Under the pieces are notes generated by a model. That model was given only the letters and a program-made list of their open reading frames with translations, had not been told where the DNA came from and made no database searches. Of a DNA stretch of 43,797 nucleotides, positions 8,531 through 37,529 are shown piece after piece. This DNA comes from a virus. The first letter of the stretch is position 1. Every line of letters begins with the position of its first letter. The stretch is from positions 1 to 43,797 of the IMG/VR virus record IMGVR_UViG_3300008450_007695; one strand, 5' to 3'. Position numbers and translations under genes: made by a program.

Positions 8531-9529
8531 ATGGGCGAGATCAATCTAAATTCTATTGCATTTAACAATCTGATTACCAGGGAAGATTTGTTTAGTCTTG
8601 TACCACAAGAAAGTATCTACAGTTTCTATTTAAATGAAGATATTAGCTCTTTAGGAGTGTATCATAGTCCTCTTCGTGAGGATAATATACCGTCTTTTGC
8701 ACTGTATTTTCATAAAATTAATAGAGATATCTTAATGTTTAAAGATTTTGCTACTAATGACACAGGTGATGTGGTTGTATTAGTAATGAAAATGTTTGGC
8801 TTAGGATATAAAGATGCTATTCACAAGATAGCATTTGATATGAAGCTTAGTACTTTTAATGTAGATTCGACAAAGCAAGTATTCTCAGGCATTACTAGAT
8901 TAGTAGAAAAAACAAGAGTAGACTTAGGGATTAAAACTAGACCCTGGATGGTTAAAGATCGTGATTATTGGTCCCAATTTGGGATACATAAAGTTACTCT
9001 TGAGAAATTTAATGTGTTTCCTATTAGTCATATTTTCTACAACGACACTGCTGTAAAAGCAAGTGATTTAGCATATGCTTATGTAGAGACTAAAGATGGC
9101 AGAACAAGTTATAAAATTTATCAGCCTTTAGAAACTAAGATTAAGAAATGGATTAACAATGCTGACTACAGCGTTCATCAAGGTTACACACAACTTGCTA
9201 AACATGGCGAGTTACTTGTTATTACTAAATCTCTTAAAGATGTAATGAGTATTCACGATTGTATAGGTGTATCTGCGATAGGTCTACAATCTGAATCTGT
9301 TACAATGAAAGACTCGGTGATGGACGAGTATAAATCTAGGTTTGAAAAAGTAGTATGTATTTTTGATAATGATGCTGCAGGTGTAAAACTTTCAGAAAGT
9401 TTTACTGAAAAGTATCATATACCGCACTATTTTATGCCAAAGATTAACGGCGTCAAAGATTTTAGTGATCTAGTAAAAGCCAAAGGAAAGGATTTCGCAA
9501 TAGAATATTTCAACAACTTAAAAATTTAG
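8531..9529 (+). CDS. DnaG-like primase (altered Toprim and zinc region)
   Basis: A 332-residue primase. The N-terminal region (about 40-110) follows the DnaG zinc-domain pattern: YHSPLREDNIPSFAL where DnaG has CPFHxxxTPSF, and DFATNDTGDVVVLV where it has CFGCGxGGDVFSF. The zinc cysteines are missing. The C-terminal Toprim domain keeps FDNDAAG (D279, D281) and a D before the helix (ITKSLKDVM), but the catalytic Glu of EGxxD is Lys. Zinc-free primases of this kind occur in other phages. It would prime replication with the DnaB-like helicase at 4902. The nearly adjacent upstream terminator suggests a low expression level. Confidence 0.8.
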   Translation: MGEINLNSIAFNNLITREDLFSLVPQESIYSFYLNEDISSLGVYHSPLREDNIPSFALYFHKINRDILMFKDFATNDTGDVVVLVMKMFGLGYKDAIHKIAFDMKLSTFNVDSTKQVFSGITRLVEKTRVDLGIKTRPWMVKDRDYWSQFGIHKVTLEKFNVFPISHIFYNDTAVKASDLAYAYVETKDGRTSYKIYQPLETKIKKWINNADYSVHQGYTQLAKHGELLVITKSLKDVMSIHDCIGVSAIGLQSESVTMKDSVMDEYKSRFEKVVCIFDNDAAGVKLSESFTEKYHIPHYFMPKINGVKDFSDLVKAKGKDFAIEYFNNLKI

Positions 9530-20395: not shown

Positions 20396-23300
20396 CTACT
20401 TGTCAAAAATTGTACTACCTGAACGATAAATTCTAATAGCTTGTGCAGGTCCAGGAATTAATTCTCCTGCATGCACTGCCCATTTAGAATCTCCTTTAAA
20501 AGGACCTGAACGAAATTCGTCATTTTCTTTATCATCATCAAAATTCTTTTTAATGTCTGATACTAATTCATAAGAATCTTGTACTAAACTAGCCATAGGA
20601 ATAGCTGTTTTAGTTAATTTTTCAAATTCTAATGGGTTAGTGTAAAAACCTATATCTGTACGTAAACGAATAGTTTGGTTTAATAAAAAGTTAGTCATCA
20701 TTTGATCTTCGTCGTCATCGTCAATAGCAGCTTTTAACAATAATGCTACTCCCATAAGGCCTAACATAATATGAAGTTCCATCATATTTTTTCGCATATT
20801 AGCAGCATCAACTTCTCCAAACTTAGTATCATACCCAGGTTTCATAAACATTAGTTTTCTTGCTAATTGTTTGAGAGAGTATAATGTATCTTCAACTGCA
20901 GAATATTGGGTTTGCATGCCTCCTATTTTTCCAGCAATAATACCTATACCTGCACCAATAGCAGTACCGATTCCTGGTAGCATCATGGTACCAATGCCTA
21001 TACCTGCAGTAGTAAGTTGGCCTAATGTATAACTACGATATCTACCTTTGCGAATGTATGGAGTATCCATACCATAGCTTAACATATCGTCTACTTTTTC
21101 GCCTTCAAATCTGTTGGCAAATCCTTCAAACATCCATGTTCTAAATTGGCTTAACGCACGTCCTGCCGCAGTTGATTTGACTTTTAGTTGATTATTATAA
21201 TCACCGTGAGTCATTTCACTAATGCGCTTAATTTTTTGAATTACTTTAGGAATATCAGCATCTGTAGTATAGCCGTCTTTTAACTTTGCATTTTGACCCA
21301 TAGCTTCCCAAAGACTGACTTCATTGCCTTCAGGATCTTTAGCTTTCATGTCCATTAATACAGCAATCATAATTGGTGCTTGGTTCAAGTATTCAGAACG
21401 TTGTTGAATAGTATAAGGGCCGAAGCGTTTAAGTTTAGAAAGGCTAGACTTTTGTGAATTATCGTAAAGTTCGTTAGCTGAAGTTTGTAGAATATCCCAA
21501 TCATCCATTAAACTTCTAATCTTAGTAGCAGCTCCATTAGGATCATTAAATAAGATATCAGCAGACATATTTCTTCCAATAGAATTTAAAGTAAGCATGT
21601 ATGCTTTACGAAGATTAGCACTATTAATTAATCGACCATCTGCACCTTCTATTAAGTTAGATATTAAGCCAAAACCGATGTTAGAAAAACCACTTGTTAA
21701 GTTCCATCCTAATCCTTTTAAAGTGCTAAATTTTAAAGCAGTATCTACAACACCACTAGCAGTGCGGTAGCCTCCTAATGCATCAATCTGTGCTTGTAAG
21801 AAAGTTTTTTCGTCTTCATCTTCTTCTTCAGCGAGTAGTTTTTCTAACTCTTTTTTACGAAGTTCTTCTTCTTTAGTGTAAAGCTTAGTTTTAGTAACAC
21901 CTTCTACTTTACGAGTACCAGTGCCATAAAAAGTTTTAAGAAAGAAATCTAAACTATCGTTTAGATTTTTAAGGCCTTCTTTTGTTACAGGAACTTGTTT
22001 CCCATTAATAGTTTTAGTCTGTACTTGTCCCGCACGGTTGGTTTGTAATTCTTTACGTTCTCTAAATGCCTGTTCTACTAGTTTAATCTGGGGCTCAATA
22101 TTAGTTTTATGTTTATATGCTAAAATATTAAGAGCATACGCTTTAAGCACTTTACTAATATCCCAAGATTTATCCTTAGAGAGCATATCTCTAGCTTCTT
22201 CTTTAAATTTTTTACGATCTTCAGCTGTTGGGGGATTACCAGTTTGTTGTCTAAATGCAATACTTTTCTCACGTACTAGCTCATTAACTCTAGAATCAGT
22301 ATCTTGAATATACTGTATCTGCACACTTTGTTCGATATCACCTGTAAGTGGGTCGATATCAGAAGTAATGCTAGTAGCAAAGTCAGTAGTAGTCTGTAGT
22401 TGTTTGAACTTATCCCATAAAGGAGTTATTCCTACCATCATCCCTTTTTCAGAAAATAGGTCTAATAGAGTTTTTTCTAGCGTAGGAAGTACTCCCACCC
22501 CCATAATACGTTTTTTCTGTGGAGGGAGTAAGTAATTTAAGCTTTTAAGAGTATCTCTAATATAATTATGATAAGCTAGTAAATCTTCATCTGCTTCAAT
22601 CTTATCAAAGTTTTTATCGTACCATCCTGTTTCTTTGCCGTCAGCAAATCTTCTAGGTACTTGAATAATATATTCTCTAAGACCGTGTACAGCGTAGTAA
22701 CTATTATCTGGTTTAATACGTAAAGAAGGATCTTCTTGCATATCCATCATTGCGTAAGGAGAATTTTCTCTTAACCATTCTTTAAACTTAACATCTTTCT
22801 CATCTTGAGACCAATTAGCATTATTTTGAATACTGTCATAAACTACAGTACGTTCTTGTTGGAACTTTTCAATTTTATTTTTAGCACGATCGATAAATAA
22901 ATTATATCCTTTTTCGCCAAGTTGCTTTTTTAAATCAGCAATATGAGCCGCTTTTTGCTCTTCTGTGAAAGTCTTATAATTATACACAAACTCTTCAGGA
23001 ACTAGTGTATCTTCAGGTAAACTATCTGGAAACAAAATACGAGGATCAAACATAATAGTGTTTGCTCTGTTCCAGTCAAAGAAATTTTTAATTAAAGCTG
23101 AATCTTTTTTAGTTTTTCCTGTATTTTTATCTCGACGATTAAATGCTTGATCAATTAACTCATTACGTTTTTTATAAAACTCATCAGAAAATCTATCTAC
23201 TAAACGACCTGTTTCTAAACCTCCTGCAGTGCGCTGTTTTAAGATATCATAGCTATTACCTGACTTTTTAAGAAACTTAGTAGTTAGCTCATCTAGTTTT

Positions 23301-24403
23301 TTAAAGATATCATTTGCTTCTTGTTGTGCTAGAATATTAGCACGTTCAACTGCACTAAATGCAGAGCTCAACATTGGATCTCCTAAACGAGAAAGATTAA
23401 GAGTTTCTATAGAAAGTTTATTAGCATCAATAAGATGCTTATAAATTTCATCTTGTGTAAGATTTCTTCCTGAATACTCTTGCACAAAAGCAGTAACCTG
23501 CTGACGTGCTAGAGCTGTTAATCTTGCTTGTAAATCAGCTGCTTTAGCGGCACGTCCTCTAAACTCTTCACGAATAGCAGGAGTATCAAATTCATACTGA
23601 TCAAGAATAATATGCTCATCTGCAGGTGTCGAAAAATCACCAGCTTTAATCCATAAATTAACAATACGCTGTGCATAAGTCAAATCATCCGCACTAACAG
23701 CAGGATTTTTAAGCAACTCTTCTACTTCTTTTAACTGTACATCACCGAATTGTAGTACTTCTTCAAATCCTTCAATACCTTGAGAACGCACTATACGTCC
23801 TTCTGCTTCATCAATTTCTTGTTTAAGTTCTATGATATTACCCGTGATGGTTTTCTTTTTATCTGCAGTATCTGCTTTTTTAAGTAAATCTTTTTGTCGA
23901 ATAAACTCTGATTGTAGTTTTTTAATTCGAACTTTTTCAGAAGATTCTATTTGATAAGGTGCAGAAGGGATAATATCTGAACTTTCAAATAAATCTAGCT
24001 GTCTTACTTGTTCTATGATAGATGCATTTGGATATGTGTTAACTAAATTTTCTACTGCCATCGGTTCTTGACGACGTAGATCTCTTAGTTGTTGCTGAGC
24101 TTTGTTTACTGGTAAGTAATTATACTTCATTTCTATCTTGAAAGTATTACCCCAAGCACGTGTAGCCTCAAAACTATGAGATGTATTATTACGTTGGTTG
24201 TAATTTCTTAGCTTACTTGCTAATCCTGCAGTGTTTTCTAGTGTTGGTTGGAAGCCTACAGCTTTTTTTATCTCTGTTGTAGGCTTTACATCTGGCATTT
24301 GAAAATTATTAAAAGCAAAAGCTTTGTGGGCAAGGTCTTCTCCCACTTGTTTTACTAACATTTTCCATTCTTTACTGTTCTTATTGGGACAAGCTATAGC
24401 CAT
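20396..24403 (-). CDS. Giant virion cargo/ejection protein with membrane-active segments
   Basis: A 1335-residue protein, last in the minus-strand block, 6 nt after the RNA polymerase gene. The start reads MAIACPNKNSKEWKMLVKQ. The first ~880 residues are helical and highly charged with coiled-coil stretches (EEEDEDEK, KKKELEKLL-type). Three hydrophobic stretches follow: about 895-920 (GLGWNLTSGFSNIGFGLISNLI), 1125-1160 (a Gly/Ile-rich AGIGIGTMMLPGIGTAIGAG type hairpin) and 1207-1228 (MLGLMGVALLLKAAI). This is typical of internal proteins that leave the capsid with the DNA and enter the host envelope. I assign it to the crAss-type cargo group by position and features. No enzyme motif was found. 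Confidence 0.65.
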   Translation of the reverse strand: MAIACPNKNSKEWKMLVKQVGEDLAHKAFAFNNFQMPDVKPTTEIKKAVGFQPTLENTAGLASKLRNYNQRNNTSHSFEATRAWGNTFKIEMKYNYLPVNKAQQQLRDLRRQEPMAVENLVNTYPNASIIEQVRQLDLFESSDIIPSAPYQIESSEKVRIKKLQSEFIRQKDLLKKADTADKKKTITGNIIELKQEIDEAEGRIVRSQGIEGFEEVLQFGDVQLKEVEELLKNPAVSADDLTYAQRIVNLWIKAGDFSTPADEHIILDQYEFDTPAIREEFRGRAAKAADLQARLTALARQQVTAFVQEYSGRNLTQDEIYKHLIDANKLSIETLNLSRLGDPMLSSAFSAVERANILAQQEANDIFKKLDELTTKFLKKSGNSYDILKQRTAGGLETGRLVDRFSDEFYKKRNELIDQAFNRRDKNTGKTKKDSALIKNFFDWNRANTIMFDPRILFPDSLPEDTLVPEEFVYNYKTFTEEQKAAHIADLKKQLGEKGYNLFIDRAKNKIEKFQQERTVVYDSIQNNANWSQDEKDVKFKEWLRENSPYAMMDMQEDPSLRIKPDNSYYAVHGLREYIIQVPRRFADGKETGWYDKNFDKIEADEDLLAYHNYIRDTLKSLNYLLPPQKKRIMGVGVLPTLEKTLLDLFSEKGMMVGITPLWDKFKQLQTTTDFATSITSDIDPLTGDIEQSVQIQYIQDTDSRVNELVREKSIAFRQQTGNPPTAEDRKKFKEEARDMLSKDKSWDISKVLKAYALNILAYKHKTNIEPQIKLVEQAFRERKELQTNRAGQVQTKTINGKQVPVTKEGLKNLNDSLDFFLKTFYGTGTRKVEGVTKTKLYTKEEELRKKELEKLLAEEEDEDEKTFLQAQIDALGGYRTASGVVDTALKFSTLKGLGWNLTSGFSNIGFGLISNLIEGADGRLINSANLRKAYMLTLNSIGRNMSADILFNDPNGAATKIRSLMDDWDILQTSANELYDNSQKSSLSKLKRFGPYTIQQRSEYLNQAPIMIAVLMDMKAKDPEGNEVSLWEAMGQNAKLKDGYTTDADIPKVIQKIKRISEMTHGDYNNQLKVKSTAAGRALSQFRTWMFEGFANRFEGEKVDDMLSYGMDTPYIRKGRYRSYTLGQLTTAGIGIGTMMLPGIGTAIGAGIGIIAGKIGGMQTQYSAVEDTLYSLKQLARKLMFMKPGYDTKFGEVDAANMRKNMMELHIMLGLMGVALLLKAAIDDDDEDQMMTNFLLNQTIRLRTDIGFYTNPLEFEKLTKTAIPMASLVQDSYELVSDIKKNFDDDKENDEFRSGPFKGDSKWAVHAGELIPGPAQAIRIYRSGSTIFDK

Positions 24404-24409
24404 TATAAA

Positions 24410-27400
24410 TTATTTACCACAAATTAACAAATATTTTTCATACATATCTTCATCCATTTCTCTTGTTGCAAGGAATTCATCAGAGAAAGCACGATTAAAT
24501 GCTTCCCAATCATCAGGTGAAGGTGTGAATGTATCTTTTTCTTGGAAACCAGAAGGTAGAGACTTTTTCTTAACAGCTGGAGATATTTTACTTGTATCTA
24601 GTTTTGGTGTTTGTGTAGAAGGTTCTGTAGTAGTATCAAATCCTGTTAGAGTTGCTTTTATTCCTGGAGCAGGCGCAAAAAATACATCGTCTTGTAGTGA
24701 TTTTCTTTGTGTAGAATCGATCAAATCAATAGTTTCTTTAACTGCAGAAGCTAAAGCTGTACCTGCTTTAATATCTATACCTAAAGAATTTAAGAGTTGT
24801 AACAACAAATCTTTGAGTTTATCCATCATAGACTTGTCTTCTACTTTTACTTTATTTAACCATGCCTGGAATCCTTGGTCAGTAAGCGCCATAGTAACAA
24901 ACTCTGTAAGTTTGATAGCACCGTAGTATTTACTTAAACCTTTATCTGTAGTAAAAGGAGTTCTTGTAGCAGGGTCTGCTTTTGCCCAAGTATTAAATTT
25001 TTCTATAAATTCATTTAACTCATTACGATTTCCTTGAGTTTCTAAATAATTAATATAACTTAACTGTAAAGCTTTTAGGTTATCAATAATCTTTACTTGT
25101 TCAGCAGTAAGTTTATCCATTCTACCTGCCTGATAATCTCTAATCGCCTCTCCTGTAAAAGTATGAATTAGTTCATGTGCTACAGTATTAGCAAGATCGT
25201 TAACTGTTTTATGATTTTGATGATTTAAATTTATAAACAAAGTCTTAGTTGCATATTCATATCTGCCTCGAACACCAGCTTCTTTTACAAACTCAAATTT
25301 AAATCCTTCTGGAAATATTAAACTATGAAGTTTTTCTAAAAGTAATTTGTTAGTAGTACTAACAGTAGGATCGGATAGTAGTCTATCAACTAGGTCATCA
25401 AATGCTCGTTTACCTGACATGTTTGTATCTACACCTAGTTGATTAGGTGGAGTTTGTTGTACAGGATTGTTTACAATATTAGGATCAAATGTCTTAGTAG
25501 GTTTAACAAGAACACCTTGGATTGTGGTACCTGGAGCAACTACGCTTGGTTTGTTGTCTTTAATCTTAGGTTGATAAACAGGAACAACTACAGCATTCTG
25601 TGAGTTATACTGTGTAAAACCATAAGTACCTTGTAGTACAGGAATACGGTTGTATTTACGAGTAGATTCATCAAACTCGTATAATGCGTACTTAGATTTA
25701 TTATTCTTATTATCATCTCTGATAGTTAAGAAATGCGTCTGTGTCTCAGTCATATCTCCAGATACAGGATCTACAACACTTACAAAATTTCTTTCTAATG
25801 CTTCTTTATCTAACTCAAATGATTCTGGAACTGTACTTACTTTACCTTTTAAGTCGCCAAGAGATATTGTTTTAGCAAGGTTTGGATTATTTTGAATGTA
25901 TTGACGAGTAAAACTACTAGGCATGCTATAAATAGGGTTGCCTAAATCGTCAACTATTCCACCAAAAGTACGTTCAAAATCAAAAGGAATTCCTTGCAGA
26001 TAGTTGCCAAACCCTAAAGTTTTTAAGTATCCAATAGGAATATAGCGCATGTATTGTTTAGAACCTTGTATACCGCCTTCTAAGAAGGCCGCTGTAATAA
26101 GATCTTGTGCAAGAAGTCTAGTAGTATAATCAATACCGTTAAAGTTTCCTAGAGGAACGTTTTTAGAAAGCAAATATGCAAAGCCTGCATAAATGCTGCG
26201 CTCGTCAAAATTAGCAGCATTACTAGACTCAAAGTTAATTCTTGAAACATCTCCATTACTGTTAAAGTTAAACGTAAGTTTATTTAAGAATTGATTGTTT
26301 TGATACCAAGGTTGAGTAGATAACTCTTGTAGTATAGTAGCAAGACTTTTGTTTTCACCTTCTTTATCGATAAATAATCTTGCTCTTTCTTCATCTGGAT
26401 TGCCTAAAAATAAACTACTTCCTTCATTAGAATAAAAGTAAGATTTAATATCTTGGAAAATTTCTGTTTGTACATCGGATAACTTAGTGCTGCTAGCAAT
26501 TACTTTATCTCCACTAGGAATATGTTTAAGAACTTCTTTAAATATTGTTTGAAATCCGTCTGTATTATACGGAAAATATGGAGCGTAAATATTATTAGCA
26601 AACATAGTTCCGTATTTAGAAGCATATCCACTAATAGTTGTTGGTACAAACTCTTTATTTTCTATTGTACCTAGTAGACTATTTGCATTAAATACATTAG
26701 ATAAAGGAAGGTTTTCAATCTGAGTTACTTTAGTATTAGTTTCTAACAAAGATTTGGGAATGCCTTTAGATGCAGTATTAATAGCTGATTGTATTTTCTT
26801 AATTTCTTCACCTATTCCATCAAGTTTTAAAAACTTATTTAAAATCATTAACTGTCCTATATTATAGTCAGTTGATTTAGTAGGATTAAATTTAGTCTCT
26901 TTTAGGTTTTCTAAAAGTTGTTCTCCAGACATGTCACCTAATTTTTCATAGGCTAACATTTGACTTTCAGAAGCTTCTGTTAATTTATTTTCAGGGTCGT
27001 ATTTTTTACGAAGCTCCTGCATCAATTCTGCTTGGAAGTTAGCATTATATTTACTAGTAGTAGATCGATTAGCTTTTATTCGATCTAAGTACTCCCAAAT
27101 GATGTCTTGAGTAATAAGCCCTGCTATATCTGTTTCTTCAAACCCAAACATTACCATAGCACGTATTGCGCCAAAAGTATCTGAGTTAATATTTAGTTTA
27201 TCAAGAATCTGCTCTTTTTCGTTATCTACTGCAGTAGACTGTAGTGCTCGAATAATTGCTGATTTAAATTTAAGAGACTCTTTTTCTTCTTTAGTAAGCT
27301 CACGTTTTTCTGCTTTAGCTCTATTAATAAGAGCTTGAGATTTAAGAGTATATGGATTAGACATATCTCCTTTAGAAACAAACTCTCCAAATGTTGCTAC

Positions 27401-28939
27401 AGGCATATTAGCTTCTGCTAACTCTTGTGCAGTAGGAATACGTGGATTCATTGGTGTACCAAATAATTCTACATACGCTTCGTCATTAAGATTTTGATAA
27501 ACTAAATCTTTGCCTTGTGCATTAGCATTAAAAGTAGAATCAAGAGAAAATGATCCTACACCATCTTTACCTGCTGTTGCATTAATGTATTTAGTACGTT
27601 GATAAATATCAGAAAGAATAGTAACAGGTGTAGGGTTTACACCCTTCTCGGAACGTATTTTATTTACTTCTGCAGCTAGACCTGTAAATTCTCCAGAACC
27701 ATCAAGTGCAATAATACTAGCAATCACTTCAGGGTTAGTACTAGTCATTACATCTAAATGGATATCTAAGATCTTATTCTGTTTAGCTGCTACATAAGAA
27801 CGATTTAAGATCGATAAGCGATCTATTAATGTTTCGATTTGACCAGGCTCTAGAAATTTTTTATCCAAACTTCTTGTGATAATTTCATTAGCTTGCGACG
27901 CCAAAGTAGAATCAATATCATCTTTTTCTTCATTACTGTCTATAGTATTCTTAATGTAATCTCTTAGTATTTTATTTTCTTCTTTTGAAAGCTTTAATCT
28001 TTCTTGTATATCGTTTAAAGTTTCTTTAGCAATCTTAATTTGCGCTTCTATTTTTTTAGGATCAGATAGAAAGTTAGTATATAGCTTGCCATTTTGATAA
28101 AAATGATTGTACATGTATGTGTACAATTTATCAACGTCAAAGTCGGACCCCATTTGTTTAGTAAAATCTCTAGGCGCTAAGACTAAATCCCCCATTGCTT
28201 CTGGTAAAAATCCTACTATTTCTACAGCAGCCATAGAGTTACGGCTTTGAGTAGGAATACGGAATCCAAATAGTTGAAGTAGTTTTTCAGGAACTTTAGT
28301 AGTGTCTAATAAACCATCTTTTGTTAAAAATTCCTCTATGTTCAAGATTTCTCCACGCTCATTGCGAAACTTAAATGGAATCATAATTTGAGCAGGTAAC
28401 ATTTTACCTGTTGCAGGATCTACACGCAAAGGTTGTAACCCTTTAGTAGCATCAAATTTATTTGTGAATACGATATCAGAATTCTTTAAATCTCCTGCTG
28501 CAGCATCACCTTCTTTAATTTTAATCCCTTCTTCAGAGCCGAGTACATAAGAATTACCCGTAAACTTTTGTTTAACTACTTTATTACTAACGAGTGACGT
28601 AAGTAAACTTTCAAATTTATCTGCATAAGGAGATGCCCACAAAGGAATTTTAAAGTTTTGTTTGTCTTCTGTTAATTCTAAAGCAGACAACATGTTAGGC
28701 GCATATCCTTGGCGAGTTTTGATTTCTTGAGCAAGAATCTCAGCAAGTTTAACTGCGGGAATTGTAGTTCTTTCTATGATTTTTTTGTCAGCAACTTTAA
28801 CTTTAGAGCTATCTTTTTTAAATCCTGGAAGACTCAGCTTACCGTTAGCAACTAAAGTATCTAAAAGGCCTTCATTTAAAAGTGCCTTAAATTCATTTTC
28901 AGAGACCCAACGACCCCCTACAAAGTACTGACAAGCCAT
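24410..28939 (-). CDS. Virion RNA polymerase, beta-prime-like part, with C-terminal zincin domain
   Basis: A 1509-residue protein. Residues 266-270 (D-F-D-V-D, in MGSDFDVDKLY) match the metal-binding DxDxD loop of the beta-prime double-psi barrel (cellular DFDGD). About 40 residues earlier R227-I-P-T-Q231 matches the RAPTLH segment of beta-prime, and FTGNSYVLGS (126-135) matches its YSGRSV strand. This order identifies the two-barrel RNA polymerase known from crAss-like phage phi14:2. The C-terminal region has H1255-E-L-I-H1259 and a likely third ligand E1346 (LTEFVTMAL), a gluzincin-type protease. Such an enzyme would enter with the DNA and transcribe early genes. The beta-like half is probably in the 2702-residue protein upstream. 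Starts 5 nt after the ferritin gene. Confidence 0.85.
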   Translation of the reverse strand: MACQYFVGGRWVSENEFKALLNEGLLDTLVANGKLSLPGFKKDSSKVKVADKKIIERTTIPAVKLAEILAQEIKTRQGYAPNMLSALELTEDKQNFKIPLWASPYADKFESLLTSLVSNKVVKQKFTGNSYVLGSEEGIKIKEGDAAAGDLKNSDIVFTNKFDATKGLQPLRVDPATGKMLPAQIMIPFKFRNERGEILNIEEFLTKDGLLDTTKVPEKLLQLFGFRIPTQSRNSMAAVEIVGFLPEAMGDLVLAPRDFTKQMGSDFDVDKLYTYMYNHFYQNGKLYTNFLSDPKKIEAQIKIAKETLNDIQERLKLSKEENKILRDYIKNTIDSNEEKDDIDSTLASQANEIITRSLDKKFLEPGQIETLIDRLSILNRSYVAAKQNKILDIHLDVMTSTNPEVIASIIALDGSGEFTGLAAEVNKIRSEKGVNPTPVTILSDIYQRTKYINATAGKDGVGSFSLDSTFNANAQGKDLVYQNLNDEAYVELFGTPMNPRIPTAQELAEANMPVATFGEFVSKGDMSNPYTLKSQALINRAKAEKRELTKEEKESLKFKSAIIRALQSTAVDNEKEQILDKLNINSDTFGAIRAMVMFGFEETDIAGLITQDIIWEYLDRIKANRSTTSKYNANFQAELMQELRKKYDPENKLTEASESQMLAYEKLGDMSGEQLLENLKETKFNPTKSTDYNIGQLMILNKFLKLDGIGEEIKKIQSAINTASKGIPKSLLETNTKVTQIENLPLSNVFNANSLLGTIENKEFVPTTISGYASKYGTMFANNIYAPYFPYNTDGFQTIFKEVLKHIPSGDKVIASSTKLSDVQTEIFQDIKSYFYSNEGSSLFLGNPDEERARLFIDKEGENKSLATILQELSTQPWYQNNQFLNKLTFNFNSNGDVSRINFESSNAANFDERSIYAGFAYLLSKNVPLGNFNGIDYTTRLLAQDLITAAFLEGGIQGSKQYMRYIPIGYLKTLGFGNYLQGIPFDFERTFGGIVDDLGNPIYSMPSSFTRQYIQNNPNLAKTISLGDLKGKVSTVPESFELDKEALERNFVSVVDPVSGDMTETQTHFLTIRDDNKNNKSKYALYEFDESTRKYNRIPVLQGTYGFTQYNSQNAVVVPVYQPKIKDNKPSVVAPGTTIQGVLVKPTKTFDPNIVNNPVQQTPPNQLGVDTNMSGKRAFDDLVDRLLSDPTVSTTNKLLLEKLHSLIFPEGFKFEFVKEAGVRGRYEYATKTLFINLNHQNHKTVNDLANTVAHELIHTFTGEAIRDYQAGRMDKLTAEQVKIIDNLKALQLSYINYLETQGNRNELNEFIEKFNTWAKADPATRTPFTTDKGLSKYYGAIKLTEFVTMALTDQGFQAWLNKVKVEDKSMMDKLKDLLLQLLNSLGIDIKAGTALASAVKETIDLIDSTQRKSLQDDVFFAPAPGIKATLTGFDTTTEPSTQTPKLDTSKISPAVKKKSLPSGFQEKDTFTPSPDDWEAFNRAFSDEFLATREMDEDMYEKYLLICGK

Positions 28940-28944
28940 AGCAA

Positions 28945-29421
28945 TTATTTATTAAGTAGTTCTTGATCGAACAACAACATGTTATCAGTAAGCGCTAAAC
29001 GAGCAAGTAAATCCATGTACTCACCTACTGCTCCTACTTGATGAGTAGTAAAGTCTTGTAGTAACAATCTTACTTTCAGAGAAAGATCCATTTTGCAAGC
29101 AGATTCTTCGTATGCCATAAGCAAATCACGCTCCATTTCGTATGCCATCTCTAAAGCACCTTTAACATCTGTGCAATCACACTTCACAGCATCTAAAGCA
29201 TCAGTAGAAAGTTCTCCGCCTAAATCGTTGCAGAACTTTTCGATTTTATTATAATGATCTCGTTCTCCTAAAGACTCTTCAGTAAATAATTTTTCAGCGC
29301 CAAAGTAACCATTAGTCTTCATACGATTTGCTAAATGCAAATACGTATGAGAAGCAGTAAGCTCTAGACGGCCAAATTTATTGAGTTCTTTTTGTTCAAT
29401 ATCGGTAAGTAGCTTTTCCAT
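28945..29421 (-). CDS. Ferritin (bacterial FtnA-like), phage-encoded
   Basis: A 158-residue four-helix protein. Ferroxidase ligands are all in place with FtnA spacing: E20 (RLELTAS), Y27, E53 and H56 (GERDH), E97 (YEMERD), Q128 (THQVGAV). E. coli FtnA has E17, Y24, E50, H53, E94, Q127. The end MLLFDQELLNK matches the FtnA E-helix (LYFIDKEL), which lines the 24-mer fourfold axis; Dps lacks it. Cysteines C64, C81, C83, C109 are unusual. Its ATG overlaps the stop of the 2702-residue gene (TAATG), and the polymerase gene starts 5 nt after its stop, so it is co-translated with virion proteins. Predicted role: oxidise Fe(II) and store iron, in the virion or in early infection. I know of no described crAss-phage case. 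Confidence 0.9.
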   Translation of the reverse strand: MEKLLTDIEQKELNKFGRLELTASHTYLHLANRMKTNGYFGAEKLFTEESLGERDHYNKIEKFCNDLGGELSTDALDAVKCDCTDVKGALEMAYEMERDLLMAYEESACKMDLSLKVRLLLQDFTTHQVGAVGEYMDLLARLALTDNMLLFDQELLNK

Positions 29422-32400
29422 TAATCACAATTTTTAAACTGGTCATTCTCGTCGAAGAAGTAATTAATCTTAGAGTCTACTAAGCCTTCAACGATTTTAT
29501 CAAAGTTTTGATTTATAAAGTTAATTCTTTCTAGGTTATCAGCACCTATTTCATCTTCAAATTCTTGTAAAGCAGTCTGTTTCTTAATCGGCGATTTGAT
29601 TTTAGAGATAGCATCCATCTTTTCTGCTATCTTCTCAACCATTTCTGGATCGGCTTCTACTTCATTAAATTGTTCTAGAACATTGTCTTCAGTAATTTCT
29701 TCGTAAAGACCTAAACGTTTAGCAAGTTTTTTCTGATTGTACTCAAATAAATCTTGATAAGCACTGTTATATTCTTTAACTAGGTCTTTACCTGTTTTGT
29801 CTTTAGTTACTTGAACATCTAACAAGTCTACAAATAGTAATGCTCGTTCTTGGGTACCTACGTTGATTTCAGCTTTTTCTCGTTTATACGGTACATCTTG
29901 CTGAATTCTAAAGTTGCTACGATCTAGTACTAAAGTGTTTTCAGGTTTAACTTCAAAGTTATCTACAACATTGCCGTTGTCATCAAAAGTCTTAATTTCA
30001 CTAGCAACAGCACCTACTTTATTAGCAGTACCAAAAGATGCTCTAATAAATTTAGGTTGTCCTCCTGCAGTGATATCTTTAGATACACTTTCTTCGTACT
30101 TTTCTAATCCTTGTCGGATTTTGTCTATTTGTAAGCCTGCAGTAAACTGTGGAATAAGTGGAAAACTCGAAGATTTAATGTATACACGGCGGTCTGCATT
30201 GTCTTCTACACTTGTCATGTTACCCACATACACAGGTTTCATAGGCTGCATTACTAGTCCTAGTTCTTCATATGTAAGTTTTGTGTTGTTATTTATAACA
30301 CCTGCAGATTGCTGAGTTAGCTTCTTGTTAATAGTATTGTATTGGAAATCAGTAAGACGTCCTAATTGGTTTAATACATATAAGTGTTCTTTCCAAGTAG
30401 TGTATTCCTGAGCATCTGATCCTTCTATCTCTCCATAACCTTTTTTGCCGTCACTGTAATCTTTGTTAATCTTTTCAAAAAATTCTTTTTGTACAGAATC
30501 TTTAAGGTTATTACTTTTAAGTTTTTTATCTTGTAAGAATACTTGTAAGTATTTATTGTTAGCACTATCTGCCAACTCTAATCCTGGTGCAATATCTCCA
30601 GCAAGACGTTTACCCATATTGATAAAAGTTGCTGATAGATTTTCTAAAGTAGTGTTACCATCTTTAAACTTAGCATATAATGCAGGGTCTCCAGTAAACA
30701 ACTTCATCATTTCGCTGTTAGCAATAAGAGAGTTAAATACATAATCTGTAGCAGCAAAACGTACTCTAGCAGCTTCTCCTACACCTTTAGCAATGTTGGA
30801 CATGTAAGCAGAGTCTAAGAAAGTATACTTGTCAGTTACACGTCCTTTAGCGTCTTTTATAGTTTGTCCAATTCCAAGATTGTTCCAGTCTTCTAGCTTT
30901 TTATCTACAAGAGTGTTAAGAGTTTCTTGTAAGTAGTCGTATACAGCTTGTTTAACTTCTGGGTTAACTACAGCATCATTTCCTGAACGAACAAGGTCTC
31001 TGTAGTTTTGCATAGTGCCGTTTACTTCTACTATTAGATCGTTTAATGCTGGGAAGAAATAAAAATATTCAGGTTCGTATCCTGCAATATCTGACTTGCC
31101 TTCTAACACTGCGGCACGGATTCTGTTAATCTCTGGCTGTACTGTTGCTTGGTAAAGACTTTCTAAGTTAGCATCAGTAACACCTCCTGGCGTCACAACT
31201 ACTTGTTGGGCTAAAGCATTGACTACTAACATCGTAGTCTTATCCGACATTGTAGGATAGAAATAAGAAACTTTTCTGTAGGTCTTACCGTCAGCAACTT
31301 GTTTGCTTCCGTTAAAGAACATACCTAGTTTTACTAACTCATGTTCGTCGACAGTAAGTTTGTTTAGCTTACGGTCTTCTTGTGACTTAGTATACTGACG
31401 TTTAAGTGCTTCAAGAGATAGATAGTCTATACCTAAAGAACTTCTCATTAAATCTCCTGTTTCTCCATCTTGAGTAAGCGCTGCCAACCATAAGCTATCT
31501 CTTGTAAATGAGATTTTTTTAAGCTTGTCAATTAAGTCTTGATTAATAAACTTTTTATTATCACTGTCGTAACTAGTAAGATCGCGCATGCGATTTACTA
31601 GATAATTATTGTTACCGTAAGAATAAATAGTCTTAGTACCTGCACGGAAAGAATTACTAAAATTACTAGCAGTATTAATTGCTTCTAATTTAGATAATGC
31701 TTTGATTGCAGAATCTTTTAACAGTGACTTATCAGCTATTTTATCGGGGTTATTAGCAATAGCTTTAAGTTCTTCTTTTAGTACTTTTACTAACCCAGAA
31801 CTAGTATTAAAGAGTGCTTCCCAAGATTTACGGCCAGAATTGTTGTATTTACCAGCACGTAAATCTTTATAAGTAGCATCAGACAGTACAATACCAAAAT
31901 TACCTAACCATTTAGCTAATTCTTCATTTGTTACGTCTTTAGGATTTTTTTCCCATTCAGAAGCAATAGTTACTATATCATCTACTACTTCCTTATTGTA
32001 TATATAATCACCTGCTTCGTTAACTAAAATAAGATTATTACCTGGTTTTAAAAGATTGCTACCCCAATAATCTCTGAGGCGCTCTTCCATAGCACTAGAA
32101 TTACTTGACCAACGTTGTAGAGAATAATTACCATATTGATCTTTATTCCACATAATAAACTTCATACCGATATGATGTTTAGCCATATCTGATACAAACT
32201 CATTTTTAATTCTTTCTGGAGAATTTTCTATGTTGTCAATAACAGTTTGTAACCATGGGAATGCTTCAGTATATAATCCTAAAGTATCTAACATTATATC
32301 TAAGTCGGCAGGTTTATTTGCCAATAACATATGGAGAGTGTCGTAAACTTGATCAAAAGGAATGATTTCTGGGAAACCTAATTCATTAGTCATTACGGCA

Positions 32401-35400
32401 CCGTTAGCATCACGTGCTTCAACAAATGCAAAGAACTTACGTAAATCGGCACTTGCTGTAGCTTTTGAGTTAATAGTAAACGCCCAGTCGTCTGAGTAAA
32501 TTGTCTTTTCTAGACCTACTGTTTCTTCACTTTCATCGAGGTCCATACTTTCGTCTACTCGTCCTGTAGAAAGTACACTCATGTATTGGTTTACTAAACT
32601 TTGTAGTTTAGGAAATTGATCGACAATTTTATCTAGTACTGCAGCTTTTTTAGGAAAACCATTGTTTCTATAAAAATCTGCTAGTTGTTTTAAAGATTCT
32701 TTATGTTCTTCAAATACAGGAAGAGTTTCTAAAGTTTTCTTGCCACCAACTTCTTTAAGAGCTAAGGCTCTTTTCATGATGTCTGCAGCAATATAAGATT
32801 GCAAAGATTCTTGAGTACGTGGGCTAACGCCTTCTAATAGTAGTTCCCTAGCTTCAGCAACAATAGTTTCTACTTGATCGGGCTCAATAGTAGCCAAAGC
32901 ATCATCAAAAGTATCTTCTGAAATATCAGTGCTGTCTTTAGTATTACCATCTACTTTAATAGTTAATCCATTAGGTAAAGTAATACTGCCTGTGTTTTGT
33001 GTTGAACGGGCTTTATATAATTCTAATGCTTTGTTAAAACTGTCTACAGCATTTTGCTTAGACTCAAAGCCGTTAGCTACAGCATCTTCGTCTGTCTTTA
33101 AAAAAGTACCGTCTCCTAAATTTTGAATATATCCTTCTAAAGTTTTAACAATAGACTCAGGAGCTACTGACTCTAACATCTGAGAGATAATCTGCTCGGC
33201 ATTTTCAGTAACAGTATCTGCAACAGGTGGTGTAGTAGTAGCTGTAGGTTGTGTAGCAACAGGCTGTTCTAAAGCAGCTAGTTCTGCATCATATTTAGCA
33301 TTTATATCTTGTAACTCTTTTTCTAATTCTTTAATTGATTTAGTCTTACCTGTAAAGTCTTGTGCATAATATTTTTTTAAAGCATTCTTCCTTTTTCTTT
33401 CTATATTAGCTTTTTGAGCTTCTATATCAGTAGATGGTGCAGCAGGTTGACTTGCTGGCGGAGCACTTGGCGGTGTAGCTGTAGAAGCAACAGGCGCAGG
33501 CTTAGGCAATTGATTAGCATTAAGCTTTTGTGTCTGTAGTTTACCAGCAAACTTAGTATCAAAAAGAATAGTTGGCTGAATAGTATAAACCCATTTAGGC
33601 TTATCTTCTGTGCCAATGTTAGCAGAGATTACGTTACTCTTAGTAGAACGTTTAATTTGATCTAAGTAACTTAGAGTCTCTGTTTCTCCTTCTCTATTTA
33701 AAACTATTACAGTAGGAGTGTTTTCTTGTAGAGCTTCAATTCTTACGTTACTTACCATTTGTGCTAACACATTAGTAAGCTTTGTAAGATTTTCTGCATT
33801 TAATCTTTTACCAAAATTTGATCCTTCAAAGTTTCTAGAGATTACTACGCCATATCGTTGGACTTCACTACCATCTTGTTGGACGTATTTGTTCATCATA
33901 ATGCCTGGACGGCCGAATTCTATACCTGTTTTAGTAATAGACAGTAACGGCGTAGTAGAAGGTAGAGCACTATTAGTACCGCCTTGCATTAATAAATTCT
34001 CAATAGATTGCCCTTTAGCAGGAAAAATATAAGTAAATTGATTAACATAGTTAGCTAACCCTACTGAGTCTGTGATATCGTGACCTGTAGCATCAGCAAT
34101 AGCTTTAACTACAGGATTGTTAATATCTCCAGTAAGATGTGCTTCAACCGCTAATACAATAGAGTTAACAACCTCAGCTGCTAACTTAGTACGCTCTAAA
34201 GGAATAGCTAAAAATTTATCAGGACCTACTTTAACTATAGCATAAGGACGACCTGCTTGAGTATCTTCTTTATTTATGATTACTCCTTTTTTGCCTAGTA
34301 GATTTTCTTTAGAGTTTGCAAATTTATATTCACCGTCTTTACCTACAGCAATAATTAACTTATCATCAGGCATTGCTTCTGTAAGAGGTAAAGACTTTCC
34401 GTCTGCAGTTTTAAACAAACGACCAAAACTTTTATAATCTACTTTAGATTTAACAGTTCCTTTTTCTACAATAGATTTACGGATTAAGTAATTTTTTTGT
34501 CGGTCTTCAGCAATTGCTTCTTGTGTATTGTCTAAGTTTTCCGCCTTGTACCAAGAGTTATCGTGTACGTAAAATACAGTTTCTCCTGACTCAAGAGTAA
34601 CTTTAATAGGAACTTCAGCAATATACTCTGGCAATTGGTTTAATGGAATGTTACGATTTTCAGCAATCTGACGTAACTCTGCTAAACGTAATGGCCATGC
34701 TATTGTCTCACGAGTATTACTTTTAGGATCGTATTTCTCTCCTTCATACTCAGTATCTATAGTCATAATTAGTTTAGTACCTGGCTGCAATGCATCAGGG
34801 TCTAGTACTAATTGATTATCTTCGAGTTGATCAGTAAACTCTTCACGATTTACAGTAAGTATTTCTGCAGTTTGATTAAAATCTCTTGATAAAAATGCTG
34901 CACGATTATGTCCTTCTGCAGCTCTATCGTAGCTATAAATTAAATTACCATTGACGTCTTGGCCTATTAAATAAGTCTTGTCGTTTTGATTAAGAGATTC
35001 TGCAGCATTAGTAGTGCGCTTAGAAGCTTGGTCTGCTTCATTTTTTGGGTCAGGTAATCCATCAGGAAGCTCTGTTTCAGTGTCTTTGTTGTTCTGATCG
35101 TTAGCATCTTTTGTTTCTTGTTCTTCAGTTTCATTACCTTGTTGAAATTGATCAAGTGGATTCTTAGGAGGAGCAGTAGGATTCTTTAAGCGCTCTAAAT
35201 GATCAGAATACTCCATGCGAAGTTGATCTTTTTTATTTTGACTTATTTCTGCATCATCTATTGCTTTTTGGATTTCATCATAGTTTGCATCTGTAGAAGC
35301 ATTAATTTTAGAACGCAACTGTTGCATTGTAAGTTCGACTTGCTTTCTTTTTGCAGCTGCCGCATTACTTTGTTTGATAGTATCAATCTTTGCTTCTGCA

Positions 35401-37529
35401 AGTTGTCTAAACTGCTCATCGTCAGTTTGATCCATTAATTTTTCTACATCAGGAATAGTTTGTGCGTTAACTAATTCAGCATTAAGAGTTTTAAGTAATT
35501 CTTTTTTAGCTTGTTTAGCTTCATATTCTTGTTGATATTTTCTACTAGTAAGTGTAGTAAACTCTTCTTGATTGCTTTCTATTAATTTATTTAATAGCTC
35601 TTCCTGCCCTTGATAACCTTCATACTGCTCGTATTCAGGAGTATTTTTGACTTCTTTTAAAAACTTGTTGTAAGTTTTTTGGTTCTCTTTAGTATCTCCT
35701 TGATTATTTTCAATATCGCTAAGTACATAGTTAAGAGGAACTTCTTTCTTTTTTGGAGTACGTTTTACCTCAACACCTTCTACTTTATCAATCTGATCGT
35801 ACTCTTCCGTAAACTTATACTTCTGAGCAATGTCACGCACTTTTTGTGCGTAAGCAACTTGAGCATTCTTAGTAAGAGTACCTGTTGTATTTGCTTGACG
35901 GTCTAATCTTTGTTTGGCTGCACGGTTATAAAAAATCTCATCGGCGTTTTTATACTCTTCAAAGTTATTATAGACTTCTTCTAATTCTTTTAAATTTTCT
36001 AAAGCTTTTTTAGCATTAGCTAAATATTCAGGACCTACTTCTGCAGGATCCTTAGCCATTTCTTCTTTAAGTTGCTCTTCTAAGATATCTGTAGTACCAG
36101 ATTGAAAAGCTTTTAATGCAGTGTTTTCAAAAAGTTTTTCTCGAATCTCTTGCACTTTAGCATCATCTCCACGATTTGCAGCATCAAACAATTCTTGTTC
36201 AAATTGCATGCGCTCGTTGATATTCATTAAAGCATCAGTAACTTTAACTCCGTTTTGTTTAAGTTCTTCAATTACTTTTTGCTGTCTCTGATATTGCTGA
36301 CGAAGATTTTCGTTATAACTAATTTTGTTACCATTTTCATCAAGAGTAGCACCTGGGCCATATTTACTAGACCTTAAAGCTGAAGTAATAGCAGTTTGTC
36401 CTGCTCCACCTATAGCTCCTAAAAAAGCAGCTTCTAAGCCTTCCATAGTACTAATAGCTTCAAAACCTTTTTTCATGTAATCCTTCTCACCACGTCCTTT
36501 AGCTTCTCCAGCTTTTTGCGCGACAAGGTTAACAGTTTCTTCTAAAGCTTCTTGCCCTGCTTCTAATCCTACTTTACCTAAAGTAGCTCCTAATGTAGGA
36601 GCAATAAGAAGGTTACGGGTAGATTTCATTGGGGTCAAGAATGCTTTTGCAGATGTAAGATTTAGAAGAATATTAGCACGGTTAATATTCATTGTAGTTG
36701 CAGCAGCTCTTGCAGCATCTTCTTTTGCTTCTGTGTCACTCTTACCTTTAGCTCTAGAATTTTGGTAAGTATTTTTATAAACCTGGGTAGCTTCAATAAC
36801 AGCTTCTGCTTGGTTCATCATAGTAGCTGCACCAACTTGGCCTACTACACCTCCTACAGTTTTAGCATTTTTTGCCCCCATTACAGTCGCTGCTAAACCA
36901 CGAGCTAATGCTTTACCTCCTAATGATGCTAACTTACCTGCTCCCATACCTGTAGCAGCAAATGCAGTAATAGATTCTACAAGACCTTCGCCTCGTGTCA
37001 TCCACCATGCAAAGTCTCCAAGTTGCATTGAACCACTAGGATTTTCTTCATAAATAGGTAAAGCTTCACTAGATTTTTCTTTAATACTATCTGCCCAATT
37101 AACAATAGAATTAGTTGCTGCTTCTTCTGCACTAAAATACCCAGGAAGATCTAACATAGCTGCAGCTCCTCCAATAATTTGAGGCACTATATTTACAGCA
37201 AGTCTACCTATTGCATTTCCTGCTTGTTCCCAATTAGATTGGTTTTCTGCTCTTAAAGTATTAAGAAAATCTGTATCAAACTGTCCTCCACGTAATGTAT
37301 TACGATCTATGTAGTCTTCATATGCATCATAAAAATCTGGAGAATCAATGTTGTACATTGCATCTACTCCACTGTACCCTGCTATCCTGCCTCCAGCTTC
37401 TTCTTGTGCTTTTTCGTAATCAGGAAGAACTCCTGATTTAATAGCTTCATTTTTACTTTGTTGTATTAAACTATCAAGTTTTGAAGTATCTGGAAGTTTA
37501 TTAATAGGAGGCGTTGTATTTTTAGGCAT
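29421..37529 (-). CDS. 2702-residue virion protein: ejection module plus probable RNA polymerase beta-like half
   Basis: The largest gene of the window. The N-terminus has Ala/Gly-rich hydrophobic patches at about 100-130, 185-240, 300-325 and 365-385 (for example GLVESITAFAATGMGAGKL), typical of ejected phage proteins that cross membranes. Residues about 430-830 are coiled-coil rich. Two Pro/Ala/Thr linkers near 1343-1370 and 1418-1440 separate domains. The last ~350 residues hold YIKSSSFPLIPQ (K2452), GTANKVGAVA (K2504), NFRIQQDVPY and NVGTQERALL. I read these as the beta-like double-psi-barrel half that precedes the beta-prime half in the phi14:2 polymerase; this is inference. The stop overlaps the ferritin start. 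The gene is preceded by the largest gap of the block (36 nt) with a palindrome. Confidence 0.7.
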   Translation of the reverse strand: MPKNTTPPINKLPDTSKLDSLIQQSKNEAIKSGVLPDYEKAQEEAGGRIAGYSGVDAMYNIDSPDFYDAYEDYIDRNTLRGGQFDTDFLNTLRAENQSNWEQAGNAIGRLAVNIVPQIIGGAAAMLDLPGYFSAEEAATNSIVNWADSIKEKSSEALPIYEENPSGSMQLGDFAWWMTRGEGLVESITAFAATGMGAGKLASLGGKALARGLAATVMGAKNAKTVGGVVGQVGAATMMNQAEAVIEATQVYKNTYQNSRAKGKSDTEAKEDAARAAATTMNINRANILLNLTSAKAFLTPMKSTRNLLIAPTLGATLGKVGLEAGQEALEETVNLVAQKAGEAKGRGEKDYMKKGFEAISTMEGLEAAFLGAIGGAGQTAITSALRSSKYGPGATLDENGNKISYNENLRQQYQRQQKVIEELKQNGVKVTDALMNINERMQFEQELFDAANRGDDAKVQEIREKLFENTALKAFQSGTTDILEEQLKEEMAKDPAEVGPEYLANAKKALENLKELEEVYNNFEEYKNADEIFYNRAAKQRLDRQANTTGTLTKNAQVAYAQKVRDIAQKYKFTEEYDQIDKVEGVEVKRTPKKKEVPLNYVLSDIENNQGDTKENQKTYNKFLKEVKNTPEYEQYEGYQGQEELLNKLIESNQEEFTTLTSRKYQQEYEAKQAKKELLKTLNAELVNAQTIPDVEKLMDQTDDEQFRQLAEAKIDTIKQSNAAAAKRKQVELTMQQLRSKINASTDANYDEIQKAIDDAEISQNKKDQLRMEYSDHLERLKNPTAPPKNPLDQFQQGNETEEQETKDANDQNNKDTETELPDGLPDPKNEADQASKRTTNAAESLNQNDKTYLIGQDVNGNLIYSYDRAAEGHNRAAFLSRDFNQTAEILTVNREEFTDQLEDNQLVLDPDALQPGTKLIMTIDTEYEGEKYDPKSNTRETIAWPLRLAELRQIAENRNIPLNQLPEYIAEVPIKVTLESGETVFYVHDNSWYKAENLDNTQEAIAEDRQKNYLIRKSIVEKGTVKSKVDYKSFGRLFKTADGKSLPLTEAMPDDKLIIAVGKDGEYKFANSKENLLGKKGVIINKEDTQAGRPYAIVKVGPDKFLAIPLERTKLAAEVVNSIVLAVEAHLTGDINNPVVKAIADATGHDITDSVGLANYVNQFTYIFPAKGQSIENLLMQGGTNSALPSTTPLLSITKTGIEFGRPGIMMNKYVQQDGSEVQRYGVVISRNFEGSNFGKRLNAENLTKLTNVLAQMVSNVRIEALQENTPTVIVLNREGETETLSYLDQIKRSTKSNVISANIGTEDKPKWVYTIQPTILFDTKFAGKLQTQKLNANQLPKPAPVASTATPPSAPPASQPAAPSTDIEAQKANIERKRKNALKKYYAQDFTGKTKSIKELEKELQDINAKYDAELAALEQPVATQPTATTTPPVADTVTENAEQIISQMLESVAPESIVKTLEGYIQNLGDGTFLKTDEDAVANGFESKQNAVDSFNKALELYKARSTQNTGSITLPNGLTIKVDGNTKDSTDISEDTFDDALATIEPDQVETIVAEARELLLEGVSPRTQESLQSYIAADIMKRALALKEVGGKKTLETLPVFEEHKESLKQLADFYRNNGFPKKAAVLDKIVDQFPKLQSLVNQYMSVLSTGRVDESMDLDESEETVGLEKTIYSDDWAFTINSKATASADLRKFFAFVEARDANGAVMTNELGFPEIIPFDQVYDTLHMLLANKPADLDIMLDTLGLYTEAFPWLQTVIDNIENSPERIKNEFVSDMAKHHIGMKFIMWNKDQYGNYSLQRWSSNSSAMEERLRDYWGSNLLKPGNNLILVNEAGDYIYNKEVVDDIVTIASEWEKNPKDVTNEELAKWLGNFGIVLSDATYKDLRAGKYNNSGRKSWEALFNTSSGLVKVLKEELKAIANNPDKIADKSLLKDSAIKALSKLEAINTASNFSNSFRAGTKTIYSYGNNNYLVNRMRDLTSYDSDNKKFINQDLIDKLKKISFTRDSLWLAALTQDGETGDLMRSSLGIDYLSLEALKRQYTKSQEDRKLNKLTVDEHELVKLGMFFNGSKQVADGKTYRKVSYFYPTMSDKTTMLVVNALAQQVVVTPGGVTDANLESLYQATVQPEINRIRAAVLEGKSDIAGYEPEYFYFFPALNDLIVEVNGTMQNYRDLVRSGNDAVVNPEVKQAVYDYLQETLNTLVDKKLEDWNNLGIGQTIKDAKGRVTDKYTFLDSAYMSNIAKGVGEAARVRFAATDYVFNSLIANSEMMKLFTGDPALYAKFKDGNTTLENLSATFINMGKRLAGDIAPGLELADSANNKYLQVFLQDKKLKSNNLKDSVQKEFFEKINKDYSDGKKGYGEIEGSDAQEYTTWKEHLYVLNQLGRLTDFQYNTINKKLTQQSAGVINNNTKLTYEELGLVMQPMKPVYVGNMTSVEDNADRRVYIKSSSFPLIPQFTAGLQIDKIRQGLEKYEESVSKDITAGGQPKFIRASFGTANKVGAVASEIKTFDDNGNVVDNFEVKPENTLVLDRSNFRIQQDVPYKREKAEINVGTQERALLFVDLLDVQVTKDKTGKDLVKEYNSAYQDLFEYNQKKLAKRLGLYEEITEDNVLEQFNEVEADPEMVEKIAEKMDAISKIKSPIKKQTALQEFEDEIGADNLERINFINQNFDKIVEGLVDSKINYFFDENDQFKNCD

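Follow-up and report, generated by a model that had tools for sequence, protein, structure and literature searches.

The ferritin gene and its setting

The window, by which we mean the whole 43.8-kb virus record analysed here (43,797 nucleotides, possibly a fragment), carries on its minus strand a gene for a 158-aa protein at 28945..29421. The list of open reading frames confirms these coordinates, which a first-pass annotation had given, and supplies the strand, which it had not. The gene belongs to a minus-strand block that runs from a homologue of Crassvirus cargo protein 1 (40148..43750; PF25725, E 6.2e-30) through the cysteine-free cargo-operon protein X of 859 aa (37566..40145) and the giant protein A of 2702 aa (29421..37529), to the ferritin, the giant protein B of 1509 aa (24410..28939) and the cargo protein C of 1335 aa (20396..24403), by gene order the counterpart of phi14:2 gp65. 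The first pass also reported an overlap of the ferritin start with the upstream stop codon (TAATG) and a gap of 5 nt before the following ATG; both are in the sequence. PF25725 was matched in the window and in 27 of the 36 related records searched. A search with phrog_11589, the crAss-type major capsid protein (MCP), gave no match in the 43.8-kb window record; it gave matches in 11 of the 22 searched records bearing a window-type ferritin, the remainder being mostly short contigs. Between 28400 and 30200 two promoter-like sites were found against 5.1 expected by chance, by a scan whose consensus may not suit the host; one such site (29503-29474, 9/12 match) lies just upstream of the ferritin on the ferritin strand. 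A consensus scan of the same interval for terminator-like sites, open to the same reservation, found none.

Is the product a ferritin? Pfam returns Ferritin, PF00210, at E 3.4e-12 and 46.9 bits against a cut-off of 24.5, with a weaker match to rubrerythrin. The identification made from the letters is thereby borne out, and placement outside the ferritin-like superfamily was not seen. In NCBIfam a rubrerythrin match alone was obtained, below threshold, and the PHROGs profiles gave no match at E 0.001. The 57 PDB sequences found by phmmer at E ≤ 0.001 are all ferritins or ferritin constructs. An AlphaFold2 model from a 16-row alignment (pLDDT 93.8) has five helices, and superimposes on the E. 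coli and Vibrio ferritins at TM 0.90-0.93 (Foldseek) and on the Vibrio ferritin with a Z of 22.9 across residues 2-157 (VIA-align). The C-terminal MLLFDQEL segment, previously likened to the E-helix of 24-mer ferritins, is predicted as the fifth helix, residues 147-156. Dps proteins lack an E-helix and form 12-mers, and the E-helix of the model sets the window protein apart from them.

The gene is under purifying selection. In six of seven pairs with dS below 0.85 the ferritin dN/dS is 0.03-0.10, the seventh being 0.22, and over 68 pairs with dS 0.02-1.5 the median is 0.17. Scans of IMG/VR found 24 other contigs with a whole window-type ferritin and one with only the end of the gene, cut by the end of the contig, 56-100% identical to that of the window; INPHARED gave no match to the window ferritin at E ≤ 0.01. 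An artefactual or chance reading frame is ruled out by the profile match, the fold, these other copies and the dN/dS values.

A polymerase gene in two pieces

What lies on either side of the ferritin? The last ~1050 aa of A align by hhalign with residues 223-1193 of phi14:2 gp66 (prob 98.7; A also matches phrog_16227) and correspond to the N-terminal part of a virion RNA polymerase; the start of B aligns with residues 1172-1373 (prob 97.7), and B holds the catalytic part (phrog_16227, E 4.7e-68). Searched against the PDB, a profile of B's start found 6vr4, a DNA-dependent RNA polymerase, that of phi14:2 (1323-1490, E 9.9e-15). The DFDxDK motif is present, B having DFDVDK at residues 266-271 (28127..28144, minus strand) aligned to GSDFDIDK of 6vr4. 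The end of A alone returned nothing from the PDB profile search at E ≤ 1. When five uninterrupted relatives and the window were combined in one profile, the match to gp66 reached prob 100. The two flanking frames are thus contiguous on gp66, in agreement with the first-pass description of two halves of a virion RNA polymerase, which places the ferritin within that chain, at about residue 1180 of gp66.

The same arrangement is found in relatives. Among 25 records (the window and the 24 with a whole gene), 15 have the ferritin between A and B, and we call these group I; in the other ten, group II, the ferritin precedes an ORF whose start matches the first ~50 aa of B.

Three loci without ferritin (L049, L053 and L055) show what the site looks like when empty. 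In each a single ORF of 4375-4866 aa spans A and B, and residue 2608 of A is followed by residue 51-55 of B within 0-5 residues. The insert defined by these alignments is a unit of ~928 bp (28778..29705, minus strand) with three parts: a C-tail, comprising the last 94 codons of A and its stop (29421..29705) and ending in FKNCD, which holds the only cysteine of A; the ferritin; and an N-tag, the first 54 codons of B (MACQYF...EGLLDTL; 28778..28939), whose first 45 residues are 31-56% identical between groups I and II. In FpV4 gp32 and L056 a similar uninterrupted gene is present and the junction is less exact. The MCPs of two phages with the empty site are 83-86% (G001, which holds L049) and 74-77% (G002, which holds L053) identical to those of ten ferritin-bearing phages. 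The ferritin gene thus interrupts the coding sequence of an enzyme whose gene is undivided in relatives. Pfam finds no endonuclease in the inserted gene, only ferritin and rubrerythrin.

Tail and tag also occur without the ferritin. The near-identical loci L062-L065 and locus L069 have a cysteine-ended tail and a tag with no ferritin between them; a search of four of the five contigs (G009-G012) with PF00210 found no match. The ferritin is therefore not needed for such a junction, and the idea that tail and tag serve solely to dock the ferritin was dropped. A similar junction occurs in Leptolyngbya phage Lbo-JY46, by a weak tblastn match (E 0.02). An AlphaFold2 model of the polymerase N-tag was poor (pLDDT 51) and was left out.

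An 11-codon ORF (ML.KI..FDK.) stands at the ferritin's place between tail and tag in L062 and L069, at about 8960-9003. It is possibly a remnant of a deleted ferritin; the overlap with the stop codon already accounts for its ML, and FDK alone is too little for a scar.

Two operon types and their exchange

How does the unit differ between the two groups? In eight of the ten group II records the ORF that begins with the tag continues in frame into B-like polymerase sequence together with the part that precedes it; the records L025 and L033 end earlier, A-like sequence being seen in L025 only. As far as seen, the polymerase that follows the tag in group II would thus be unsplit. The protein upstream of the group II ferritin differs from A: it has about 1290-1666 aa where complete, and it too is cysteine-ended. 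Its tail resembles that of A weakly, with 33% identity over 95 aa for G017 against G023 and a median of 25% over the last 60 residues, so that a common origin of the tails is uncertain; those of L025, L030, L032 and L033 look unlike A's. The identity of 9% between groups over the 150 residues after the tag does not measure divergence, these being different parts of the polymerase by position. Of 20 loci measured (L029 was left out), 14 have a ferritin start that overlaps the stop codon upstream; in the other six it lies 9-12 nt behind that stop. L041 (3-8501) has two ORFs, of 1743 and 1087 aa, in place of a single counterpart of A.

The ferritins do not sort with these arrangements. Compared pairwise, they have a median identity of 68% inside group I and 72% inside group II, and of 71% across the two groups, for nine of the 15 group I and eight of the ten group II records, and a tree in which group II forms one clade is rejected (p-AU 2.4e-11; trees exclude L017 and L018, whose ferritin is the same as the window's, and the partial L060/L232). 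The MCPs, by contrast with the cargo genes, are 82-99% identical in all 25 cross pairs of five group I and five group II records. In G017 against G023 the compared flanking genes are 81-100% and the ferritins 83% identical; the cargo proteins are 23-46% identical in matched pieces, 68% in one N-terminal piece, or show no match, and the matched polymerase parts are 23-29% identical. From the capsid and flank identity, the divergent cargo and the ferritin tree we conclude that the ferritin and the cargo block have been reassorted relative to one another. The G017 and G023 loci (L120-L125) themselves, with capsid proteins 99% identical and cargo operons quite different, look like a wholesale exchange of the ejection/polymerase module. 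PF00210 found no match in ten related records (G001-G006, G009-G012), several of which are fragments.

The ferritin comes with a junction, apparently movable, that provides a tail and stop for the upstream protein and a start and N-terminal tag for the downstream one. In group I the unit lies within the polymerase gene and makes two chains of it; in group II ferritin and tag stand before that gene. Movement was likely from a junction of the group II type into the group I polymerase gene, and the tail probably moved along with the ferritin.

Could the ferritin be chiefly a passenger at a recombination joint, the unit being kept because its conserved middle and ends allow cargo operons to recombine and because its removal would damage a split polymerase? 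The high identity of the ferritin inside a cargo block that has been exchanged is what such a history would leave, and tail and tag do give ends to both polymerase parts. But a passenger should not be under purifying selection with invariant metal ligands (see below), and the ferritin-free junctions described above have the tag and cysteine-ended tail without it. We regard this explanation as very improbable.

Ferritins in the virion modules of other phages

A wide scan with seven divergent phage ferritins as queries found at least 119 uncultured viral loci, the best 80 of which were classified. In 72 of these best 80 the ferritin lies among virion (head or cargo) genes, a figure that is not an independent frequency, since the queries themselves came from virion modules and near-copies were counted. 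A portal protein and/or MCP is at most three genes away in 13 of the best 80; in 49 the module contains an MCP and a structural protein adjoins the ferritin, a class for which phrog_29507 was tested in L094 and the rest were assigned by blastp or size; in seven a head maturation protease follows the ferritin (phrog_1028 in L160, L163 and L179, the other four by resemblance); and three (L159, L166 and L182) lie between large virion ORFs. The remaining eight of the best 80 are outside recognisable virion modules or unclear, L147 adjoining a UvsX-like gene. Individual loci are instructive. In G007 and L093 the ferritin lies between portal and MCP, and in L096 it is flanked by a polymerase-like giant protein and the giant protein that follows. 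In L080 and L082, which belong to a different phage group, a ferritin 29-30% identical to that of the window precedes a protein starting MACKYFY. A protein ending DKNCP is the immediate upstream neighbour of the ferritin in L080; in L082 it lies 558 nt farther upstream.

In a tree without cellular ferritins, the tag-flanked ferritins have a branch of their own, separate from the scan ferritins (best 80 of 119). Two scans of genome contigs confirmed no cellular relative, and the tree therefore has no bacterial outgroup. INPHARED matches to the other phage ferritins comprise four records titled Bacteriophage sp. and two from Staphylococcus phages; the ferritin of L089 had none. In one INPHARED record (L097) the ORFs look bacterial, and the remaining INPHARED matches were given no weight. 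The profile phrog_16594, of unknown function, matches the ferritins of L087 and L089.

Three BFVD proteins named prohead protease (A0A6J7WPK9, A0A6J7XDU5 and A0A6J7WIS1) match the ferritin model in part and weakly (Foldseek E 0.02-0.06), which suggests a ferritin/Dps-like domain fused to a capsid protease in these predicted structures.

Do these ferritins keep a working iron site? E20, Y27, E53, H56, E97 and Q128 of the window protein share alignment columns with the ferroxidase ligands of E. coli K-12 FtnA, with like spacing, as the first-pass annotation had it. All six are kept in 104 of 105 phage ferritins (82 different sequences, many of them near-copies): 23 of 23 in the tree set, both distant tag-flanked ones and 79 of 80 from the scan (best 80 of 119). 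The 25 tag-flanked ferritins, among which loss of the ligands was looked for, all retain them. A feature missed earlier is that the glutamates of the third iron site of FtnA, site C (E49, E126, E129 and E130), are replaced in the alignment by G52, H127, G130 and A131. The position equivalent to 130 is Ala in 25 of 25 tag-flanked ferritins and Glu in all 80 scan ferritins (best 80 of 119); the human H chain also has Ala there. With the FtnA site C missing, formation of the iron core may differ. Judged from its residues, the window protein should be a ferroxidase-competent ferritin subunit without site C.

Terminal cysteines of the giant proteins

The giant cargo and polymerase proteins A, B and C are almost devoid of cysteine apart from one that is at most a few residues from each inner end. 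The only cysteine of A is residue 2701 of its 2702, B has cysteines at residues 3 and 1507 of 1509, and C has a single one at residue 5. There are none in the two proteins upstream of A, and 0-8 in each of ten early proteins encoded in the window. The same plan is seen in phi14:2 gp67, gp66 and gp65 and in crAss001 gp47, gp50 and gp49, with one extra internal cysteine in gp50. Internal cysteines also occur in FpV4 gp33, in L053 and L082 and in some chains of the gut phages crAss002, cr116_1 and cr8_1, one cr8_1 chain having 14. For crAss002 gp33 (NC_055828) the annotated start may be too early, since a motif like other cargo starts, MSCTPSNP, is at residue 33.

Over 27 contigs the ORFs of at least 700 aa contain 70 terminal and 22 other cysteines among 135,424 residues. 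At 47 junctions between large ORFs, from 33 hand-chosen loci, cysteine is found on both sides in 19, on neither in 28 and on one side only in none; many of these loci are related, so that the counts are not independent. The protein upstream of the ferritin is cysteine-ended in 21 of 23 cases (L096 and L166 being the others), and the one downstream is cysteine-started in 24 of 24. The window ferritin, unlike its neighbours, has no terminal cysteines.

What might the cysteines do? Our guess from their placement is that the giant cargo chains could be joined head-to-tail by a disulfide or metal link. Disulfides are described in tail and portal-vertex proteins, not in cargo, in excerpts of PMC10172136. 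The avoidance of cysteine except where chains meet makes physical linkage of the ejected cargo proteins of crAss-like phages testable.

Role of the ferritin

The favoured reading, held with a little more confidence than doubt, is that a ferroxidase-competent ferritin is made late in infection and sequesters iron where virions assemble. The product would be a non-heme ferritin subunit of the H/FtnA type, most likely assembling into an iron-storing cage, and would oxidise Fe(II) at its intact diiron centre. Translated late, together with the chains of the virion-carried RNA polymerase, it would remove reactive iron at the time and place of virion assembly, and replicated DNA and the thiol-ended cargo proteins may thereby be protected from Fenton chemistry. 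Family, fold, ligands, selection, the anatomy of the unit, the empty site and the two positions come directly from the analysis; cage assembly, late timing, iron sequestration and the protective purpose we infer. A strict need for the ferritin is argued against by G001 and G011, whose MCPs are 83-93% identical and which lack a PF00210 match, although either record may be incomplete.

Might the ferritin instead be a component of the virion, its subunits or cages packaged with the cargo proteins to keep iron off the packaged DNA outside the cell or to be delivered to the next host? The placement of the best 80 of 119 loci, mostly by portal or MCP (13), a structural gene (49), a head protease (7) or large virion ORFs (3), is what one would expect of a virion protein, and the partial, weak likeness of the BFVD prohead proteases to the ferritin model (E 0.02-0.06) points the same way. 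Room is available: the capsid cargo zone of crAss001, about 1.1e7 cubic angstroms in excerpts of PMC10172136, would by our estimate accommodate several 12-nm cages. But an assembled 12-nm cage is too wide for the tail constrictions, under 50 angstroms in the same excerpts, so that whole cages could stay in the capsid and would not be ejected intact. No packaging signal was identified, the ferritin lacks the terminal cysteines of its neighbours, and its location fits plain late expression equally well; virion modules being late operons, neighbourhood does not separate 'late' from 'packaged'. On balance we think packaging less likely than not.

The first-pass reading, of a ferritin packaged or made with the ejection proteins, thus stands in part, as regards a selected, ferroxidase-competent-looking ferritin between two polymerase parts in a virion cargo operon, and the 72 of the best 80 of 119 loci add weight to it. 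Its further suggestions, of packaging, DNA protection, a supply of iron or iron loaded on the virion, stay conjectural, and for the link to the 'Ferrojan horse' idea no sequence feature in favour was seen in this analysis.

A wider proposal joins these threads: ferritin would recur in many uncultured tailed phages as a component of the virion or of its assembly, carried in capsids as an iron cage. In crAss-like phages it would ride in a movable junction, and the cysteine-ended tail and the tag of that junction would link the two polymerase halves head-to-tail again for ejection. As a whole we consider it distinctly doubtful. Should the ferritin act in or around virions, iron control would be part of phage particle assembly or survival, a step in the ecology of viruses and iron.

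Comparison with known systems

Ferritins, bacterioferritins and Dps proteins of phages are already in print and in protein records; the protein family is known and the genomic arrangement is new. With E. coli FtnA and eukaryotic H-ferritin the window protein shares the fold with its E-helix and the six ferroxidase ligands and their spacing. It differs from FtnA in having 17% identity, in the replacement of the site C carboxylates and in being encoded by a phage within a virion operon. Among BFVD entries, A0A8D9C9X5 ('putative bacterial non-heme ferritin', uncultured marine phage) and A0A8S5Q7U4 ('ferritin heavy chain', Siphoviridae sp.) have the fold of the window model, at TM 0.84-0.89 for the two.

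Ferritin-superfamily genes in other phages have been read in terms of oxidative stress: Dps and Mn-catalase in 'Gratiaviridae' and a Dps-like protein in Lactobacillus phages, in the portions available of PMC8008677 and PMC6669764. The Lactobacillus gene, in that same material, is close to replication and repair genes, unlike that of the window. Bacterioferritin genes are known from reports on 'Flandersviridae' and a Bathyarchaeia virus (PMC11780533, PMC10904782), and a ferritin from one on freshwater phages (PMC6802176), with no virion link given in the text available from these three sources. The freshwater gene is listed there among oxidative-stress genes, as it would be if phage ferritins were auxiliary metabolic genes for survival of the host under oxidative stress or grazing, with no link to the virion. 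Nothing would require a gene of that kind to be placed between the parts of a virion enzyme, and ferritins recur in virion blocks; for the window we hold this explanation to be improbable. In the literature consulted, beyond which lie supplements and most subscription papers, nothing was found that joins ferritin with Crassvirales cargo genes or phage head modules.

The operon itself has known counterparts. In phi14:2 the row from gp69 to gp65 is comparable and includes the homologous polymerase chain, and the crAss001 cargo operon, gp45-gp50, has a similar gene order; no ferritin is annotated in either. The phi14:2 genes gp69-gp65 are annotated from virion mass spectrometry in the record, and homologues of the cargo proteins were found by this method in virions of both phages (record annotation; excerpts of PMC10172136). 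Group I departs from both in that its polymerase is split within the chain.

A precedent for the split is mobE inside nrdA of phage Aeh1, where, in the accessible part of PMC2988022, a free-standing gene likewise divides a phage enzyme gene into two cooperating chains and mobE follows nrdA with a UAAUGA stop/start overlap, comparable with the overlap in the window. The window differs in that the inserted gene encodes a ferritin and not a homing endonuclease, and in that its downstream tag is also found at another junction. The unit is thus an example of a working gene within a giant polymerase gene, one that comes with ready-made ends for both fragments.
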